Of a DNA stretch of 26,298 nt, positions 2,132 through 26,298 are shown piece by piece. A program made the position numbers and the translations under genes. The first letter of the stretch is position 1, and every line of letters begins with the position of its first letter. Location of the stretch: positions 1 through 26,298 of IMG/VR virus record IMGVR_UViG_3300025603_000066. One strand, given 5' to 3'. The notes under the pieces are model-generated. The model was given only the letters and a program-made list of their open reading frames with translations. It was not told the origin of the DNA and made no database searches. Source of the stretch: a virus.

Positions 2132-2138
2132 TATTTAG
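2132..2138 (-). promoter_or_regulatory. Late promoter heptamer CTAAATA
   Basis: CTAAATA on the minus strand, 21 bases before the ATG at 2111. The TAA stop of the transglycosylase gene (2135-2137) lies inside it. Confidence 0.58.
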
Positions 2139-4036
2139 CTCTTTTTGCCTTTACGCTTATTGTACAAATTCCATGCTGTAGCGTAGGCTATACCCCGTTC
2201 TGTGTCGGTTAACTTGCCGTCTTTGGTATAGCCTTTTTTAATATCTTTAACCATGCGCTCATACTTGTCGCCTGGTGGCGCAGATTCTTTTGCTTTATCC
2301 CTAATAGGACCACCCTGTGTTTGTGGTCGAGGCGCTGGTGAACGTGGTTCTATAACATCTGGCAACTCACCTGTATCGCCTGCTCCTGCAATAGTGGCTG
2401 TGTCTGTTCCGGCACTTGTTGCCATTGCGTCCGTTTTAAAGTCTTGCCATTTTTTATTCAAATAATCTGAAGTTTTTTTAAACACAGGCTCTATATCTTT
2501 TTTGTATACTTCTTTGCCAATGGTGCCAGCTGCCTTACCTAAATCTTTTGCTATAGGAGCAACATAATCATACCCTTTTTTAGCATAATCTTGTGCAGTC
2601 TGTGCTATTGTATCGAATCCTTGCGCGGCGCCAGTTGCCATTTGTTGCGGATCAAGTTTTCTTGTATCTAGCTGTGGAGCGAGTGTCTGTTTTTCTAGAT
2701 ATGATTGTGCATTTGTTCCTAAATAAGCATTGATCTGTTGGGTAAAATCATCGTTATAAGGAGCCCAACCTTTTTCTTCACTGCCGTAAATGTAATCACG
2801 TGTTTCTTGTGGTATATTCCCTTTGCCGCCTTTTGCTAGCCAGTTGGCTGTTGCTGTTGGTCCCCAATTATATGCCATAAGTGCATGCTGAGGATTCTCA
2901 CTAAACCTATTATAGTTCTTTGCAAGATACCTAACACCTGCTTCAATGTTTTTTACTGGGTTAGTAAGATCTCGCTTTTTAATACCAAAGTCTTTTGCGT
3001 ACCGGGGAAGTAGTTGCATGGGTCCTACTGCCCCCGCTCTGCTCTTAATCGTGGCCGCTTTGTTTGGGTCGTATATTCCTGTTTCTCGATTAAGGACATG
3101 TAGAGCTAATGATTCTGGCACACCATATTGTTTAGAGTATTTGCGCACGAGATCTGCATACTGTTCTTTGGTGTAACTTTGTTGTTCTTTAAGAGGCACT
3201 CCGGGTTTATCCCAATCATAATACGAACCTCGATTAGCCATCCATCCATAGAGATCAACTCCCGTATCCGTGTCACCAACTGGTGTTAGGACCGGGGTCA
3301 ATTTATTACGATTACGATTACGATTACGTATACTTGGTTCACCTGTTTTTGGTATTGGTACTGTTGGTGCTTTTATTGTTGTTGATTGTGAGGTCTTCGT
3401 CTGAGAACGCACCGGCGGTGCGTTAGTACCTGGGTCGATCTTTGTTTTTGATCTCTTTGGTAGCAGTCCTGGTTTAATAAGAGGCTGTGGTTCAACCTTA
3501 GGTATAACTGGCTCTGGAACGTCTATCTTACCAGGTGTTGGTGTTGGTGTTGTTTGCCTTTGTGGCAACGGAGTATCACCTGGTTCGATCTTTGTTTTTG
3601 ATCTCTTTGGTAGCAGTCCTGGTTTAATAAGAGGCTGTGGTTCAACCTTAGGTATAACTGGCTCTGGAACGTCTATCTTACCTGGCTTCGGCTCTGCTTG
3701 CCTTTGTGGCAACGGAGTATCACCTGGTTCGATCTTTGTTTTTGATCTCTTTGGTAGAGTTTTGGGAGCTACCTCTGTACCAAACGCATCTTCTAAATCT
3801 GCATAGCTCTTTGCCAAATCCTTTATTCTATCTAATTCTGCTTGCTCACCTTTGTTTAATTGGCCGGAACTAAATATTGTGGTGATAAGTTGCATAACCT
3901 TGTTAGGGTTAAGGATTTTTGCCACAGTGCCAGGCGTAATTTTTTTTAGTATATCTTTAAGAATTGGATTGTCTTTTATTATCCTGTCCCAATTTATACC
4001 CTTTTTCTCTGGTCCTTTAAACTCCCTTAGACGCAT
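2135..4036 (-). CDS. Virion-associated lytic transglycosylase (SLT-type domain) with proline-rich repeats
   Basis: The product is 633 residues. Residues about 290-400 form a lysozyme-like SLT domain: NRETG (catalytic glutamate about E318), GAVGPMQLLP (335-344), NPVKNIEAGVRYLAKNY (359-375) and HALMAYNWGP (384-393). These enzymes cut the glycan strands of peptidoglycan. Upstream, residues about 94-210 are two near-identical 48-50-residue repeats (LPKRSKTKIEPGDTPLPQRQ ... PLIKPG) plus a partial third, then an NRNRNRN tract. The C-terminal module at about 590-623 (YERMVKDIKKGYTKDGKLT, then IAYATAW) is a tag I recall at the ends of marine-phage structural proteins. There is no signal peptide or membrane segment, so it probably acts from the virion, or is released with a holin. 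Its place among structural genes favours a virion role. Confidence 0.88.
   Translation of the reverse strand: MRLREFKGPEKKGINWDRIIKDNPILKDILKKITPGTVAKILNPNKVMQLITTIFSSGQLNKGEQAELDRIKDLAKSYADLEDAFGTEVAPKTLPKRSKTKIEPGDTPLPQRQAEPKPGKIDVPEPVIPKVEPQPLIKPGLLPKRSKTKIEPGDTPLPQRQTTPTPTPGKIDVPEPVIPKVEPQPLIKPGLLPKRSKTKIDPGTNAPPVRSQTKTSQSTTIKAPTVPIPKTGEPSIRNRNRNRNKLTPVLTPVGDTDTGVDLYGWMANRGSYYDWDKPGVPLKEQQSYTKEQYADLVRKYSKQYGVPESLALHVLNRETGIYDPNKAATIKSRAGAVGPMQLLPRYAKDFGIKKRDLTNPVKNIEAGVRYLAKNYNRFSENPQHALMAYNWGPTATANWLAKGGKGNIPQETRDYIYGSEEKGWAPYNDDFTQQINAYLGTNAQSYLEKQTLAPQLDTRKLDPQQMATGAAQGFDTIAQTAQDYAKKGYDYVAPIAKDLGKAAGTIGKEVYKKDIEPVFKKTSDYLNKKWQDFKTDAMATSAGTDTATIAGAGDTGELPDVIEPRSPAPRPQTQGGPIRDKAKESAPPGDKYERMVKDIKKGYTKDGKLTDTERGIAYATAWNLYNKRKGKKS
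3305..3328 (-). repeat. Hexamer microsatellite (ATTACG)4
   Basis: Four perfect ATTACG units on the plus strand encode the NRNRNRN tract of the transglycosylase, just before its catalytic half. Confidence 0.9.
3436..3757 (-). repeat. Tandem in-frame repeats of 150 and 144 bases
   Basis: Positions 3436-3532 and 3586-3682 are identical over 97 bases (offset 150). Positions 3554-3613 and 3698-3757 are identical over 60 bases (offset 144). Both spacings are multiples of three and encode the proline-rich linker of the transglycosylase. Confidence 0.92.
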
Positions 4037-4045
4037 TCGACTAGC

Positions 4046-5149
4046 CTACTTGTTTTCTTTTGCTTTTTTGTCTTTGGCGGCTTTCTTCATTGGCTCTTTT
4101 TTGTCACCGTCACCATCTAAATCTAAATAATCTGGCTTTGCTTTTTGCTTGGCAGTTTCATCAAGTTTACGAACGCTTACTACTTTCCAACCTGGGTTAT
4201 CACGTTTTGCATTGCTTTTAACATCTGACTCTGAATCACCGTCGCTTGCAAGGATACGTTCTGCTTTTGTAACGTTGTCTTTTTCTAGCTTAACATGATA
4301 AAATGTCTGTGGGGCAGTATTATACTTGCCACGTTTGTCAGCACGTACACCACTGGCGGCAAACGCTTTTCCTTCTTTAAACTCTGTAAATTCTTTTAAC
4401 AGTTTTTCTTCAATTCTAGCAACACCTTCAGCAATAGCAGACTGTTTAGAGTCTTTCATTTCTTCCTTGCAAGTCTTGATTAAATCTTTTAGTTTATCTT
4501 TGTCTGCATCAGCATGCATTTCTAACATTTCTTTTTCAGACTTTCCATCTTTGCACATGTCCATGACATGCTTCTTTGATGGCATTTTGCCGTCAGCACC
4601 TTCAGCAATAGCAGACTCTTTCATCTTCTTGTCACGTGTTGATTTAGAGGCATGTGTGTGTCCTTCTGAAACGACATTGTGCATATTCTTAACTGCTACA
4701 TTGCGTACAATACGGGTTTTACCTTCTTTAATAAAAGTAGCATCATAGTGTGTTACAGTTCCATCTTCTAGTAGAGTATGCTCTCCCGGAAGTACTGTGC
4801 ATTCACCGTAAACTTTGTGTTCAAATTTTGTAGCGCAGTCGTGATAGATACCGTCGCCTTCGTTAACTTCTTCATCTCCAAAGTTGAACTTTGCTTTTGC
4901 TTCTGCTTTGGACATGCTGTACTTGTCACTGAACTCGTCGCTAGTTAGTTCGTCAATATCGCCGAGCAGTTCTTTCATCTTACCTTCGGTAACTGGCTGT
5001 GCGCTTTCGTTTAATTGTTGTAACTTTCCTAAGATATCAGCCATTGCTGTATCTGCGGTTACTGTGCGCTTGCCTTCTGTAAGTGGCTTTGATTCGTCTG
5101 TTGCTTGCGAAAAAGTTGATAGTATATCTAGCATTTGTCTGTCAGTCAT
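4046..5149 (-). CDS. Modular, highly charged phage protein of unknown function
   Basis: The product is 367 residues and rich in Lys, Glu and Asp. Residues 55-90 carry the LTSDEFSDKYSMSKAEA module also found in the gene at 1-1344. Residues about 95-160 (HDCATKFEHKVYGECTVLPG ... LLEDGTVTHYDATF) look like a small beta domain. Residues about 190-235 hold a helical module with spaced cysteines (VMDMCKDGKSEKEM ... LIKTCKEEM). The C-terminus has DYLDLDGDGDKKEPMKKAAK, an EF-hand-loop-like acidic stretch followed by a lysine tail, which I recall as a tag in marine-phage proteins. The start at 5149 has an AAGGATAAT Shine-Dalgarno. Nine bases separate it from the transglycosylase gene, suggesting co-transcription. 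The function is unknown; a structural or prohead role is an inference. Confidence 0.8.
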   Translation of the reverse strand: MTDRQMLDILSTFSQATDESKPLTEGKRTVTADTAMADILGKLQQLNESAQPVTEGKMKELLGDIDELTSDEFSDKYSMSKAEAKAKFNFGDEEVNEGDGIYHDCATKFEHKVYGECTVLPGEHTLLEDGTVTHYDATFIKEGKTRIVRNVAVKNMHNVVSEGHTHASKSTRDKKMKESAIAEGADGKMPSKKHVMDMCKDGKSEKEMLEMHADADKDKLKDLIKTCKEEMKDSKQSAIAEGVARIEEKLLKEFTEFKEGKAFAASGVRADKRGKYNTAPQTFYHVKLEKDNVTKAERILASDGDSESDVKSNAKRDNPGWKVVSVRKLDETAKQKAKPDYLDLDGDGDKKEPMKKAAKDKKAKENK

Positions 5150-13161: not shown

Positions 13162-13210
13162 ATAACACTATAGATTTTAGGTCGTTTAGATGCCTTTCGA
13201 AAGGTTTGCT

Positions 13211-13218
13211 TATAAATA
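13211..13218 (+). promoter_or_regulatory. Late promoter TATAAATA for plus-strand island
   Basis: A full TATAAATA on the plus strand ending 5 bases before the ATG at 13224. At usual late-promoter geometry, transcription would start at or next to that ATG. Confidence 0.65.
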
Positions 13219-13223
13219 CTAGC

Positions 13224-13568
13224 ATGCAACGTCCTTTATGTCCCACATGTCACGGTAATCCAGTGGCAATAAACTACTATTCTAAAGGCAAAGTCCGTTA
13301 TAGAAAACAGTGTTCCGGTTGTGCTCGACAGGGTAAAAGGGGAAAACAGGTTGCCGCCTGGCTACGTGCTGGCTATAAGAAAAAATTAACTTGCGAACGA
13401 TGCGGATTCAAAGCTAAACACAAACAACAGATGTTTGTTTTTTATGTAGATGGTAATTTAAAAAATAACAATTGGGTTAATCTAAGAAGCGTATGTGCTA
13501 ACTGTAGGATAGAACTACAACAGACTACAAACTCCTGGGTCGAAAGTTCCATCAAAGACGATATATGA
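13224..13568 (+). CDS. Zinc-ribbon, degenerate HNH-like DNA-binding protein
   Basis: The product is 114 residues from ATG 13224; a TTG at 13206 would extend the frame through the promoter and is rejected. Four CxxC pairs are visible: CPTC, CSGC, CERC and CANC. The second half follows the HNH pattern (FVFYVDGNLKNNNWVNL then CANC), as in phage HNH proteins that read H-x-DGN-x-x-NN, but the histidines expected before DGN are F and Y. Zinc would be held by the cysteine pairs, while nicking activity is doubtful. I recall close relatives in cyanophages, so it is a conserved protein, not a decayed one. It has no clear Shine-Dalgarno. It overlaps the next gene as ATGA. A regulator or DNA-binding accessory is the likeliest role. 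Confidence 0.82.
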   Translation: MQRPLCPTCHGNPVAINYYSKGKVRYRKQCSGCARQGKRGKQVAAWLRAGYKKKLTCERCGFKAKHKQQMFVFYVDGNLKNNNWVNLRSVCANCRIELQQTTNSWVESSIKDDI

Positions 13569-21514: not shown

Positions 21515-21702
21515 TTTGGATTGTTATCTTTCACTGTCTTAATCGCATTATAAAAGTCTGCAAACTTTACTTTTAGATCTTCGTCTGCATCAATAGCATG
21601 CCACAACAGATCTAACTGTTCTGTGATAGATGGATACGAAAACGCACGATTTTTATCTACTTCTTTTTCTGCGTCTGTCATGTTTTCTATAAGTTTTGCC
21701 AT
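21511..21702 (-). CDS. Small phage protein with YPSI-EQLD motif
   Basis: The product is 63 residues. The motif AFSYPSITEQLDLLWHAID followed by FYNAIKTVKDNNPK is one I recall in small phage proteins, or protein ends, next to tail-fibre genes, usually of unknown role. The start overlaps the fibre gene stop as TAATG (21700-21704), so it is coupled to that gene. A fibre chaperone or assembly partner is a possible guess. Its stop codon sits inside the next late-promoter heptamer. Confidence 0.75.
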   Translation of the reverse strand: MAKLIENMTDAEKEVDKNRAFSYPSITEQLDLLWHAIDADEDLKVKFADFYNAIKTVKDNNPK

Positions 21703-23099
21703 TATGCTATTGCCTGTATCAGTAACATTGGTTTAATTGGAGCTAGGCGAGTGCCCGAAGCAGTAGTACCATCCCACCAGACATTTTGATGAAGCGTGTG
21801 AGAATAACCGCCACCATAATGCCGATGCAATCCTCTAATTGTTTTTGCACTTGTCCAACTGGTAAACTTTCCGTTTGCGGCGTCATCGCTTGCGGCGGCG
21901 CAATCAAAAACCCACTCTACACCAAGTTCTAAGTTCGCATGATGCCAGTTTGTTGATGCATAGTTGGATGAATAGTTTCTAGATGACGGGATAACATCTG
22001 TTCCATCTATTTGAACTTTAAAATGTGAAATGCCAGAATAGCCGGTACAATCCCACTTGAAATTGTATCTATATATGACTCTTTTTGTTCCTGCTGGTGG
22101 GGTATACGCTACAGAACTACCTGTCATTACTACATGTGAGGCTGTTGATGCCTGTCCGGCAGTAACATTTGTAATAGTATATGACCCAGATAGAACTGAT
22201 ACAGTTGAACCATCACACATACAAGCAATTGTTTCAATAATTTCGCCTGGCCTATATGTGCCTGGAGTAATTTTACCGCTGGTTGTGATATCACCACTAG
22301 GGTCAATTGTCATTGCGGAATTAGTTATACCACTACCATAACTGTTGCTAGTACCAAAAATCAGTTTAGAACCACCACCTGTGTACTGTGCTCCAATTCT
22401 TACATGCGGAGCGGCTTGACTTGCTAGATATTTTCCTTCAATTAAAGAAACGTAATTATCAGCAGTATAACTAGTTTGCGAAACTTCAACGCCCTCACCA
22501 GCAGTTGTTCCTGTAAATGTAGACCCTAATGTATTTGCGGCATTTATTTCTAAACTTGTAGTAGGACTAGTCGTACCAATACCGACTTTGCCAGCGCTGT
22601 TGATACGCATACGTTCTGTACCGTCAACACTAAAATTAAGTATTGAACCAGCACCTGCATTAGTTGGATCAGACGTTATACCTATAGATCTACTTGAATT
22701 ACTAAGATTAATTATTCCACCAGAATAACTAGTATCAGCAACACTTCCAACAAAGGCTTGACTAGTAGCCATTGATGTACCAACGGTTACTAAATTAGTA
22801 GTTGGACTAGTAGTACCGATACCGACTTTACCAGCACTGTCAATTGCCAATGAATCGTCTGGTGCTGATCCGTTAACATCAATAGCGGCAGGTAAGGATT
22901 CAATGCCTGTTAATGCACTGCCGTCACCTGCAAATGCCGTAGCAGTTACAGTACCAGCTACATGCAGTTTTGAGCTTGGCTCAGCAACCCCAACACCAAT
23001 GTTACCGTTGCTTTTAACTCTTAATGAATTGGCAGGGGCACTTTTATCAGCTTTGATTGATGTCCCAGAAGTTGCTACTCTATTTCCAATATATGCCAT
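21702..23099 (-). CDS. Tail fibre/spike-type protein with GIGT repeats
   Basis: The product is 465 residues. The N-terminus (MAYIGNRVATSGTSI) is typical of short fibre proteins of marine phages. Three repeats of the form S(A/N)GK(V/I)G(I/V)G follow, two of them GKVGIGTTSPTT and one GNIGVGVAEPSSKLHVAG. These beta repeats are known from trimeric fibres and spikes. The last 180 residues (from about GEIIETIACMCDG) form a separate domain with many aromatics (FKWDCTGYSGISHFKVQIDG, GLHRHYGGGYSHTLHQNVWW, IKPMLLIQAIA) and are the best candidate for receptor contact. It is followed by a coupled 63-residue gene and preceded at once by another fibre gene. The target is unknown. Confidence 0.83.
   Translation of the reverse strand: MAYIGNRVATSGTSIKADKSAPANSLRVKSNGNIGVGVAEPSSKLHVAGTVTATAFAGDGSALTGIESLPAAIDVNGSAPDDSLAIDSAGKVGIGTTSPTTNLVTVGTSMATSQAFVGSVADTSYSGGIINLSNSSRSIGITSDPTNAGAGSILNFSVDGTERMRINSAGKVGIGTTSPTTSLEINAANTLGSTFTGTTAGEGVEVSQTSYTADNYVSLIEGKYLASQAAPHVRIGAQYTGGGSKLIFGTSNSYGSGITNSAMTIDPSGDITTSGKITPGTYRPGEIIETIACMCDGSTVSVLSGSYTITNVTAGQASTASHVVMTGSSVAYTPPAGTKRVIYRYNFKWDCTGYSGISHFKVQIDGTDVIPSSRNYSSNYASTNWHHANLELGVEWVFDCAAASDDAANGKFTSWTSAKTIRGLHRHYGGGYSHTLHQNVWWDGTTASGTRLAPIKPMLLIQAIA
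22562..22842 (-). repeat. Coding repeat for GKVGIGTTSPTT in the fibre gene
   Basis: The stretches near 22562-22602 and 22804-22842 are close DNA copies encoding the same GIGT repeat. The two protein copies read SAGKVGIGTTSPTT and differ only in flanks. A third, diverged copy lies at about 22955-23010. Confidence 0.65.
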
Positions 23100-23777
23100 T
23101 TATAATCTTCCCGCAATCACTTCAATAGTGCCAACCGTTTCGGAGTCATAAGATTCAAGTGCTTTGCCTACCACTGTTCCAAAATTTGGTGCTGTGCAGG
23201 AAGTGCCTGCTCCTGCTATATTACCAGAAACAATCATGTCTCCACGTTGTATTTTTCCATGCACCTTACAAGGAACACGACCTGTTAGTGCCAGGTCAAC
23301 AACATTTTCTGCCACTAGGTCTTTGTTCATTAAAAATGCAGGATTGGTACTGACTATGCCCGCCACTGTGGGATCCATGTAACTGTTGCTGGATGTAACT
23401 TCTTTTGGACCGCCTATTGTCATAACAGTTCCTGGGTCATATTGGCTATCCGCTACGTATTTTTCAGCCAAGTCAGCATACAATGCTTGTGTTGCTGTAC
23501 CTGTAAAATATGTTGCTGTAACATTACCACTAAAGTTTCCGTGTACTGCTTGTACTGTTCCTGTTGCGTTAACATGTGAAGCACCTACGTTACCGGATGT
23601 AGTTAGCAAGTCAGTACTTGGGTTGTATGTTAAATTAGCATCAGTTTCTAACGCGGTTGTAGCCCCTTGTGTATCGCTGAATACCAAGAAAACAGTTTCG
23701 TTATTGCCATCATTAGCTGTATTAATAACTGTTTCAGCTGTTGTTATAACGTCGGGTTCGTTGCCTAAATATGCCAT
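23100..23777 (-). CDS. Fibre-type structural protein with C-terminal YADLAE domain
   Basis: The product is 225 residues. The N-terminus MAYLGNEPDVITTAETVIN matches fibre starts. A beta-repeat region (LTYNPSTDLLTTSGNVGASH, NATGTVQAVHGNFSGNVTAT) is followed by a compact domain: LYADLAEKYVADSQYDPGTV, VAGIVSTNPAFLMN, LTGRVPCKVHGKIQRGDMIV and GTVVGKALESYDSETVGTIE. The same domain ends the gene at 24939 and is frequent in marine-phage fibres. It resembles autoproteolytic Peptidase_G2-type fibre modules, but I see no secure catalytic set. The start at 23777 has an AGGATAAT Shine-Dalgarno. The next fibre ATG follows this gene's stop directly. It shares a 61-base identical segment with the gene at 24939. 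Confidence 0.83.
   Translation of the reverse strand: MAYLGNEPDVITTAETVINTANDGNNETVFLVFSDTQGATTALETDANLTYNPSTDLLTTSGNVGASHVNATGTVQAVHGNFSGNVTATYFTGTATQALYADLAEKYVADSQYDPGTVMTIGGPKEVTSSNSYMDPTVAGIVSTNPAFLMNKDLVAENVVDLALTGRVPCKVHGKIQRGDMIVSGNIAGAGTSCTAPNFGTVVGKALESYDSETVGTIEVIAGRL
23512..23572 (-). repeat. 61-base direct repeat, copy 1
   Basis: Identical base for base to 25345-25405. It encodes TGTVQAVHGNFSGNVTAT in both fibre genes, while flanking DNA differs. Confidence 0.9.
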
Positions 23778-23785
23778 TGATTATC

Positions 23786-24115
23786 CTAGGTCGACGATGA
23801 CAAGTAACTCATGATAGAATCTGTACTGGTGGTTGTGTCAGAAGAAACACTTATTGTGTCGCCCTGTTCAAGAACTACTTTTTGATCGCCACCAACGATT
23901 ACTATTGCACCACCACTTGCTATTGTTGCGCCTTTGATCATGTTTACTGTTGCCCCACCACTTTTGCTTAGTGTTGCTGTTACAGCTATATTATTTGCGT
24001 GTATATTTGATAAACTAAAACCAATAATGGTGTGTGTTGTACTTGACGAGACTGTGTCAGACACCTGTGCAGGGCTAGTCCCTATGTTCCCGGTTACTAC
24101 GCTTTTAAATGCCAT
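23786..24115 (-). CDS. Small virion-type protein, common beside marine phage fibres
   Basis: The product is 109 residues and all-beta in look: MAFKSVVTGNIGTSPAQVSD, THTIIGFSLSNIHANNIAVT, then GGAIVIVGGDQKVVLEQGDT and ISVSSDTTTSTDSIMSYLSS. The VVGGDQKVVLExGDTI signature is one I recall in small structural proteins located beside fibre genes in cyanophages and other marine phages, where it may decorate the tail or capsid. No enzymatic motif is visible. A TTAAATA late-type heptamer lies at 24136-24142, 21 bases before the ATG, with the TAA stop of the upstream gene inside it. Confidence 0.82.
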   Translation of the reverse strand: MAFKSVVTGNIGTSPAQVSDTVSSSTTHTIIGFSLSNIHANNIAVTATLSKSGGATVNMIKGATIASGGAIVIVGGDQKVVLEQGDTISVSSDTTTSTDSIMSYLSSST

Positions 24116-24135
24116 TTCTAATTCCTATCATACTG

Positions 24136-24142
24136 TATTTAA
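24136..24142 (-). promoter_or_regulatory. Late-type heptamer TTAAATA
   Basis: TTAAATA on the minus strand, 21 bases before the ATG at 24115. The upstream TAA stop (24139-24141) is in the same register as at the other nested sites. It differs from ATAAATA at the first base. Confidence 0.48.
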
Positions 24143-24846
24143 CCTAATGCTATTGCATACTCAATTGCTGTTGCTTCAGTAAGACCACCACCACTTGCGG
24201 TAGCAAAACTTAGTGTACCACTGCCGTTTGTAGTCAACACTTGATCGGCAGTACCGTCACTTGTAGGGAAAGTGTACGCACTGTTGATTGTAATACTGCC
24301 AGCGTGTAAACCTACTTGTGATACGGTCAAGTCACCTGTGCTTGCACCTGTTGCTGTGGTGGTACCTAGTACAAAAACATCTGCGCTTTCGTCCCATATG
24401 ATCGCGGCATTGTCGCCTGTGCTACCACGCTCAAATATAAATCCTAAATCGTTCGCATTACTACCGGCACCACTGTTTAATTCTATTAAACTATCTGATA
24501 TGGTACTGTTTGTTGTGTTTATTGTTGTGGTGAGTCCACTTACTGTTAAGTTACCTGTAACTACTGCATTGTTGGCATTTAGTGTGCCCACCGTTATTGG
24601 TGCGTAGCTTGTTGGTACTAGGTTGGCATCTCCCGCACCGCCTGAGTTAGTGAATGCTGTATAGAACGAGTTGTCTGTTTCGCTCCAGTATACAGCGACG
24701 TTTGAAACCAAACCGTTTGCTCTGTTGAAAACAAATCCAACATCACTGTCGTTGGATGTTGACCCTTGATGCAGGACCAACAGTGGGTCATTAAACACTG
24801 TGCTGTCTGAGTTTAAGAATGATAATGGCGGTCTAGTTAATGGCAT
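24139..24846 (-). CDS. Fibre-type structural protein with duplicated DxGFxFxR module
   Basis: The product is 235 residues. Two copies of one module are seen: DSDVGFVFNRANGLVSNVAV then YWSETDNSFYTAF near the N-terminus, and NDLGFIFERGSTGDNAAIIW then DESADVFVLGTT near the middle. Between them is a beta stretch (TGNLTVSGLTTTINTTNSTI) similar to one in the gene at 24939. The C-terminus (FPTSDGTADQVLTTNGSGTL, EATAIEYAIALG) is a pattern frequent in marine-phage fibres. It probably forms part of a trimeric fibre or its connector. It has its own late promoter (24875-24881), directly beyond the terminator of the previous gene. Confidence 0.82.
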   Translation of the reverse strand: MPLTRPPLSFLNSDSTVFNDPLLVLHQGSTSNDSDVGFVFNRANGLVSNVAVYWSETDNSFYTAFTNSGGAGDANLVPTSYAPITVGTLNANNAVVTGNLTVSGLTTTINTTNSTISDSLIELNSGAGSNANDLGFIFERGSTGDNAAIIWDESADVFVLGTTTATGASTGDLTVSQVGLHAGSITINSAYTFPTSDGTADQVLTTNGSGTLSFATASGGGLTEATAIEYAIALG

Positions 24847-24874
24847 AATATAAGTCTATAAAAATATGTGTATA

Positions 24875-24881
24875 TATTTAT
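24875..24881 (-). promoter_or_regulatory. T4-type late promoter heptamer ATAAATA
   Basis: ATAAATA on the minus strand, 29 bases before the ATG at 24846 and 5 bases beyond the terminator stem. Confidence 0.65.
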
Positions 24882-24886
24882 TCAAA

Positions 24887-24916
24887 AATAAAGGGACACC
24901 TAAATGTCCCTTTATT
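24887..24916 (-). terminator. Rho-independent terminator after fibre gene
   Basis: A perfect 12-bp stem (AATAAAGGGACA with TGTCCCTTTATT) with a 6-base loop. On the minus strand it runs into TTTATTTTTGAA. It begins 22 bases after the stop codon at 24939. Confidence 0.85.
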
Positions 24917-24938
24917 GTGTTGCTTAAGATATTGCAGG

Positions 24939-26298
24939 TTATACTTTACCTACAACTACCTCAATGGTTGCTTTTACACCATCTTCTAGTGTTTCTAGTG
25001 CTTTACCAATCACAGTACCTGTTGCTGGGTTGGCGTGTGCTTTCGCATAACCAAATCCTGCTGATACCATCATGTCACCTTTGACTACTGGACCAATTGC
25101 TAAACATGGAACACGGCCCATAAGTGCCAGTGCTACAACATTAGAACCTGTTAGTCCACCATTCATCAAGTGAGCTGGGTTGGTTGAAACAATACCTGCT
25201 ACACGTCTTGAATCTTCTGTAGCAGTTGTTACTTCTTGTGCTCCACCAAACTCAAGTACTGTGGCTGCTGAATAGTTAGCATCTGCTTGATAGTTCTCAG
25301 CCAAGTCAGCGTAAAGTGATTCAGTAGCAGTACCAACAAAGTAAGTTGCTGTAACATTACCACTAAAGTTTCCGTGTACTGCTTGTACTGTTCCTGTTGC
25401 GTTAAGACTTGCAACACGAACATTACCAGCTGAGCTGTAAATTACAGCCTTACTGTTAACCACTGTATCAGCAACTGAAGTATCAACTAAGTTTAGTTCA
25501 GCGGCTGTTGAACTAACAGCAGTACCGTTGATTAACAATGATGAAACATCGGTTGCTTTGTTAAGCACCCACTTGTCGCCTGAGTTGGCGTAAGTAATTG
25601 TAGCACTTGCGCCATCGACTGTAATACCAGCACCGTCTGCAGTTGCGGCATCTGCGGCACCTGAAGCAAGAACAATGTTTTTATCATCAACTGTTAACGT
25701 TGTTGAATTGATTGTTGTTGTAGTACCGTTAACAGTGAAGTCACCGCTAACAATCAAGTTGTCGTCAACTGTAACTGTTCCGCCTGCTGAATCAATTGTT
25801 AATCCACCGCTTGTTGTATCAATCTCGTTCGCACCTGTAACACCAACTTGGATGTTTTGTGCTGTGAGTTGACCAGTTACATCACCAGTTACAGCACCAG
25901 TTACAGCACCAGCAAATGCGGCTGATGTTACTGTACCTGTGCTTGGATTGTAATGTACACCGGTGTCATAGTTGACTGCTGTTAATGCACCACTAGTAGC
26001 TGAAGCAAAATACAAGTTAAAGTTTGTATTTGTTGCTTCGTCTTGAGCAATAGTAGCACCAGCGGCTGCCCAACTTAGTGTGCCTGAGGCATCACTAACA
26101 AGAGCGTAACCGCTTACACTTGCATCTTCTGCTGGCAGTGTCCAAGTAATGTTTGAACCCACTGTGGCTGGAGCTTGGAATGCAACAAAGTTACTGCTGT
26201 CTGCATCATTAAAGCGTAAATCACCTTGGTTACCTGTTACGAGATCAGTTACATATAATGTACCAAGCCTGTTGCTTGAGCTACCAATGTTTTGGGTA
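24939..26298 (-). CDS. Tail fibre protein, N-terminus cut by window edge
   Basis: The frame stays open from the right edge to the stop at 24939, so the GTG at 26162 is an internal codon, not the start; at least 452 residues are visible. The visible N-terminal part (QNIGSSSNRLGTLYVTDLVT, DLRFNDADSSNFVAFQAP) is followed by ITWTLPAEDASVSGYALVSD. A long beta-repeat region comes next (GAVTGAVTGDVTGQLTAQN, GDFTVNGTTTTINSTTLTVD). The C-terminal domain LYADLAENYQADANY ... VAGIVSTNPAHLMNGG ... VPCLAIGPVVKGDMMVSAG is the same as in the gene at 23100. It shares a 61-base identical segment with that gene. A strong terminator follows. It is likely a long or side fibre protein; the receptor is unknown. Confidence 0.85.
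   Translation of the reverse strand, partial: TQNIGSSSNRLGTLYVTDLVTGNQGDLRFNDADSSNFVAFQAPATVGSNITWTLPAEDASVSGYALVSDASGTLSWAAAGATIAQDEATNTNFNLYFASATSGALTAVNYDTGVHYNPSTGTVTSAAFAGAVTGAVTGDVTGQLTAQNIQVGVTGANEIDTTSGGLTIDSAGGTVTVDDNLIVSGDFTVNGTTTTINSTTLTVDDKNIVLASGAADAATADGAGITVDGASATITYANSGDKWVLNKATDVSSLLINGTAVSSTAAELNLVDTSVADTVVNSKAVIYSSAGNVRVASLNATGTVQAVHGNFSGNVTATYFVGTATESLYADLAENYQADANYSAATVLEFGGAQEVTTATEDSRRVAGIVSTNPAHLMNGGLTGSNVVALALMGRVPCLAIGPVVKGDMMVSAGFGYAKAHANPATGTVIGKALETLEDGVKATIEVVVGKV
25345..25405 (-). repeat. 61-base direct repeat, copy 2
   Basis: Identical to 23512-23572, at the same place relative to the YADLAE domain in the neighbouring fibre gene. Confidence 0.9.

Follow-up and report, generated by a model that had tools for sequence, protein, structure and literature searches.

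The distal tail fibres of T4-type phages recombine between conserved motifs (Tetart et al. 1998, cited in PMC3797505). As summarised in the citing paper, short conserved motifs in the fibre genes serve there as exchange points for host-range parts, in likeness to the locus described here; the segments concerned belong to the adhesins gp37 and gp38, whereas our junction lies between a fibre shaft and a chaperone-like C-terminal domain (C-domain), in paralogues of one genome. Domain mosaicism of phage receptor-binding proteins has also been widely surveyed (Smug et al. 2023, PMC10684548), and in that survey, as here, otherwise unrelated fibre proteins share fragments, including intramolecular chaperone domains. 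The survey was made at the level of proteins and domains, whereas here the junction is placed to within tens of bases and tied to an identity within the same genome. Fibre recombination at conserved motifs is already known, and the junction that we describe is a further example of it.

In gp12 of phage phi29, the C-terminal domain acts in trimer formation and then removes itself by cutting. The C-domain that begins at YADLAE has the fold of this autochaperone, and relatives match its Pfam family, Peptidase_G2 (PF11962). Unlike gp12, the proteins analysed here fall short of the Pfam model, and their self-cleavage is only putative.

Two fibre genes sharing 61 bases

The window, which is the whole stretch of DNA analysed, comprises 26,298 bases (26 kb) of one virus record, from a phage with T4-like tail and head-completion genes. 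Loci of relatives are given L-numbers (e.g. L005). Among annotated phage records, the matches to the short fibre gene g1 were all distant, with identities under 60%, and came from phages of Campylobacter, Pseudomonas, Agrobacterium, and Sinorhizobium; the comparison therefore rests on metagenome contigs. The features around the fibre genes are as follows.

21702..23099, minus strand: gene C, fibre-like, adjoining g1; shaft modules in common with L005 and L007 genes
23100..23777, minus strand: g1, a short mosaic fibre gene of 225 aa
23103..23480, minus strand: C-domain of g1, starting at YADLAE; predicted fold of the phi29 gp12 C-terminal fragment
23448..23599, minus strand: wider paralogous stretch in g1, 81% identical to 25281-25432 (family D1)
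23512..23572, minus strand: 61-base segment, g1 copy; exact, maximal match to 25345-25405
23514..23534, minus strand: FSGNVTA codons of g1, 54 to 34 bases before YADLAE; homology with L005_A1, L007_A1, and L191 restarts here
23592..23777, minus strand: N-terminal module of g1 (MAYLGNEPDVITT...), common to L087 and L191
23786..24115, minus strand: gene B (109 aa), lying between g1 and gene A; the L087 counterpart is 97% identical
24139..24846, minus strand: gene A (MPLTRPPLSFLNS...), a separate gene of 235 aa in the window
24939..26298, minus strand: g2, a long fibre gene continuing past the window end; C-domain at 24942-25313
25281..25432, minus strand: wider paralogous stretch in g2, counterpart of 23448-23599 (family D1)
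25345..25405, minus strand: 61-base segment, g2 copy; exact, maximal match to 23512-23572
25347..25367, minus strand: FSGNVTA codons of g2; homology with L005_g2 restarts here (-54)

Direct comparison within the window confirmed the claim of the initial annotation that the two copies agree at every base, synonymous sites included: the match runs over exactly 61 bases, cannot be extended either way, and includes 19 consecutive silent codons that are all identical (permutation p about 5e-5, the lowest value that 20,000 shuffles can give). Its placement of the segment just upstream of the YADLAE domain was also correct, with 31 bases between the segment end and the Y codon. Its statement that the flanks differ stood in part, as the match does stop at 61 bases, but the flanks are diverged paralogous sequence, the 152 nt round the segment being 81% identical between g1 and g2. 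The two copies have the same direction and codon phase, at a spacing of 1833 bases (3 x 611); each encodes NATGTVQAVHGNFSGNVTA and extends two bases into the following codon. In g1, the segment and its neighbours read as three 11-residue units (GNVGASHVNAT, GTVQAVHGNFS, and GNVTATYFTGT), which look like a repetitive fibre shaft.

Where g1 and g2 encode the same residue, the codons are identical at 21 of 27 positions upstream of YADLAE and at 24 of 61 in the C-domain (Fisher p = 8e-4). Because a silent-codon run of 19 stands against 24/61 in the adjoining C-domain, the identity is due neither to chance nor to codon constraint. As in gene conversion, the tract exceeds its flanks in silent-site likeness and conflicts with the tree of the flanks. 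A diversity-generating retroelement was considered as well and appears not to apply, as the repeat pair is identical and carries no adenine-specific mismatches.

The conflict with the flanks was seen in the C-domain tree, in which g1 clusters with L005_A1, L006_A1, L007_A1, and L191, while g2 clusters with the g2 genes of L005, L006, and L087. A single clade of g1 and g2 was rejected (p-AU 4.9e-5); the tree is small, most of its single branches are not strongly supported, and L112_b was flagged as a long branch. The nearest C-domain relatives are L005_A1 for g1 (88%) and L006_g2 for g2 (95%), and the two groups are far apart. Separate clades downstream of an identical segment therefore make the C-domains old paralogues and, on these comparisons, the 61 bases upstream of them a recent shared piece.

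Four other IMG/VR contigs hold both copies, with zero differences from the window over 8.3-11.4 kb. An assembly artefact was rejected because these contigs agree, although the samples are possibly not independent. The five near-identical contigs (the window and these four) show no variation, so the event can be neither dated nor caught in progress. Judging from the coordinates, with direct repeats 1833 bases apart in the same phase, recombination between the two copies would take out 1833 bases and leave the g2 shaft joined in frame to the end domain of g1. We looked for such a g1/g2 chimera in the window's population and found none.

Other repeats are present in the window. At 3401-3757, near-perfect repeats of 144-150 bases encode TLPKRSKTKIEPGDTPLPQRQ-like units inside a gene (2135-4036) that matches phage tail transglycosylase families, and a further direct-repeat pair (921-1041 and 4867-4987) is 121 bases long and 81% identical. 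In addition, a plus-strand ORF at 13206-13568, adjoining the tail sheath gene, has paired cysteines (CPTCHG..., CERCGF..., CANCRI...) and possibly encodes an HNH-type endonuclease.

Mosaic genes and chimeras in relatives

The short gene g1 is built of pieces. Its first 139 nt match an L087 gene at 138 positions, after which the homology weakens and stops at nt 186, 19 bases ahead of the segment start (base 206). Starting within the segment, at base 243, and continuing to the gene end, g1 corresponds to the differently built gene L005_A1 (84% at the DNA level). Both ends of g1 are found in L191 (77% for the N-terminal module and 79%), which has about 700 extra bases between them; this central module, about 90% common with L087 and L007 genes, is missing from g1. 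The long gene g2 is 85% identical to the L087 g2, with homology collapsing only at the segment. In the g1/g2 clade, the FSGNVTA codons, 54-56 bases ahead of YADLAE, are where homology repeatedly restarts. The module that forms gene A in the window is joined to a g1-type C-domain in a single gene in L005, L006, L007, and L089.

Clean chimeras at the same junction were found in relatives. L006_A1 and L087_g1, two distinct genes from separate phages, are about 98% or more identical from -111 to about +20 of YADLAE; ahead of this block their sequences are unrelated, and beyond it their C-domains have diverged (63%). In L007_A1 and L191, the C-domains are nearly identical while the shafts are unrelated. 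As in the T4-type system, a short conserved segment is thus present in the fibre genes (the 61-base identity in the window, the FSGNVTA and YADLAE stretch in relatives), and natural chimeras switch at it (L006/L087, L007/L191, and g1 itself). Such chimeras are what the initial annotation had proposed to look for, and both halves of its reading, recent gene conversion or a recombination seam, gained support from the separate C-domain clades, the identical segment, and the mosaic g1. The outcome that it had named as contrary, slow codon-constrained identity in relatives, was not seen, since the nearest relatives of both g1 and g2 differ at the segment.

Across 336 loci, we counted the internal homology boundaries of alignments with at least 80% identity that span the C-domain and end inside both genes. 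Between -110 and +10 lay 28 of 41 boundaries, against 7.2 expected if uniform, a count to which we give limited weight because some of these boundaries could arise where a fast-evolving shaft meets a conserved domain. We also compared the linker, taken as the 90 bases before YADLAE, between same-genome paralogues, with other-genome pairs matched for C-domain identity as the reference. The linker fell in the top 5% of similarity in 27 of 80 same-genome pairs (4 expected) and was ordinary in the other 53; the first set had given 16/54, and the pairs from loci fetched separately afterwards repeated this with 12/26. The pairs are partly dependent, as some genomes supply two pairs or near-duplicates and relatives have a common history, and the computed binomial p-values are therefore too small. 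In the silent-codon comparison, the L094 and L095 pairs had no upstream excess.

The end domain and its fold

In the AlphaFold2 model of g1, confidence is low up to about residue 100 and high thereafter. The best solved match of the C-domain was the C-terminal part of phi29 gp12 (PDB 3suc and 3gqh), with Z 14.7 over 110-118 residues; the alignment to 3gqh had an rmsd of 2.3 over 110 residues and was the top one among all chains compared. The start of the gp12 C-terminal fragment aligns near g1 residue 102, inside YADLAE. Capsid cement and decoration proteins match the same fold, with Z up to 12.3, and because cement proteins have it, the fold alone does not give the function. At the sequence level, the window proteins had no match to PF11962, and Pfam gave no informative family for them; a phmmer search of g1 against the PDB returned only weak, unrelated-looking chains. 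Among relatives, PF11962 was found in 33 of 65 at E up to 1, and it exceeded the 25-bit cut-off in the L034, L053, and L112 copies (3 of 10 tested).

We infer a chaperone role for the C-domain. If the behaviour of gp12 is valid here, the segment would end the mature shaft and the C-domain would be a removable chaperone.

Origin of the shared segment and its meaning for fibre genes

We consider it likely that homologous exchange copied the shaft end of g2 into g1 and removed the central module of g1, at a repeatedly used junction. The 61 bases would then be a recent copy across the place where the fibre genes of this phage group trade parts, namely the last part of the shaft, directly before the C-domain with its predicted autochaperone fold. 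The short conserved stretch (FSGNVTA in this clade, then YADLAE) would permit in-frame joining of unrelated shafts to different C-domains, and an exchange would require just this stretch before YADLAE. On this reading, g1 probably began as an L191-like gene that shed the central module of its shaft and gained the end of the g2 shaft. The exchange would have taken place inside a cell, either within one genome or between co-infecting phages, with homologous recombination (gene conversion or ectopic recombination) as the presumed mechanism and selection for new fibre combinations as the presumed force. Copying probably went from g2 to g1: weak evidence makes g2 the likelier donor, because its alignment to a related L112 gene crosses the segment unbroken, while that of g1 is only piecewise.

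The main rival, which we hold to be unlikely, is a one-off ectopic event that duplicated or converted the end of the shaft, the junction being merely a domain border where in-frame, functional chimeras survive. A single event does suffice for the window taken alone, and the same boundaries would arise if recombination took place anywhere and selection then favoured domain borders. However, the pattern recurs at the same place in separate phages, and long identical runs within one genome are also present in L091 (53), L241 (47), and L165 (36), the 61 bases of the window being the longest among the pairs examined.

That g1 and g2 each took the segment independently from a third phage, within larger modules and with no exchange between them, seems to us very unlikely. 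Modules do move between phages, and L112 and L113 carry a diverged version of the segment (45/61 identical), but a sequence search of IMG/VR found the exact segment in no contig besides the window and the four that match it, and identity in two contexts would need two recent imports from one source. Hardly credible is selection on the DNA or RNA itself (a structured RNA or regulatory site) or codon constraint: although folding of the 101 nt around the g2 copy beats that of shuffled sequences (z -2.75), the segment itself has no such advantage over shuffles on either strand (z +1.1 and +0.7), the g1 context has no folding signal (z +1.1), the sequence is missing from both genes of the nearest relatives, and a nucleic acid structure at the segment was rejected, as none is common to both copies.

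Exchange between g1 and g2 at a reused junction remains our preferred reading, and it offers a junction of defined position, open to testing, for the remodelling of fibres in abundant uncultured T4-like phages. What is possibly new is a putative within-genome homogenisation of a linker before a chaperone-like domain, across a large uncultured group. We raise tentatively, and think rather unlikely, a concerted evolution in this widespread phage group, in which the linker before a removable chaperone domain would be homogenised within each genome and kept because it leaves recombination possible, with shafts and chaperones remaining interchangeable in frame. The findings suggest a general exchange point where the shaft borders on the chaperone-like domain, and if linkers are homogenised within genomes, this would show how phages hold several fibre genes compatible for the swapping of parts.
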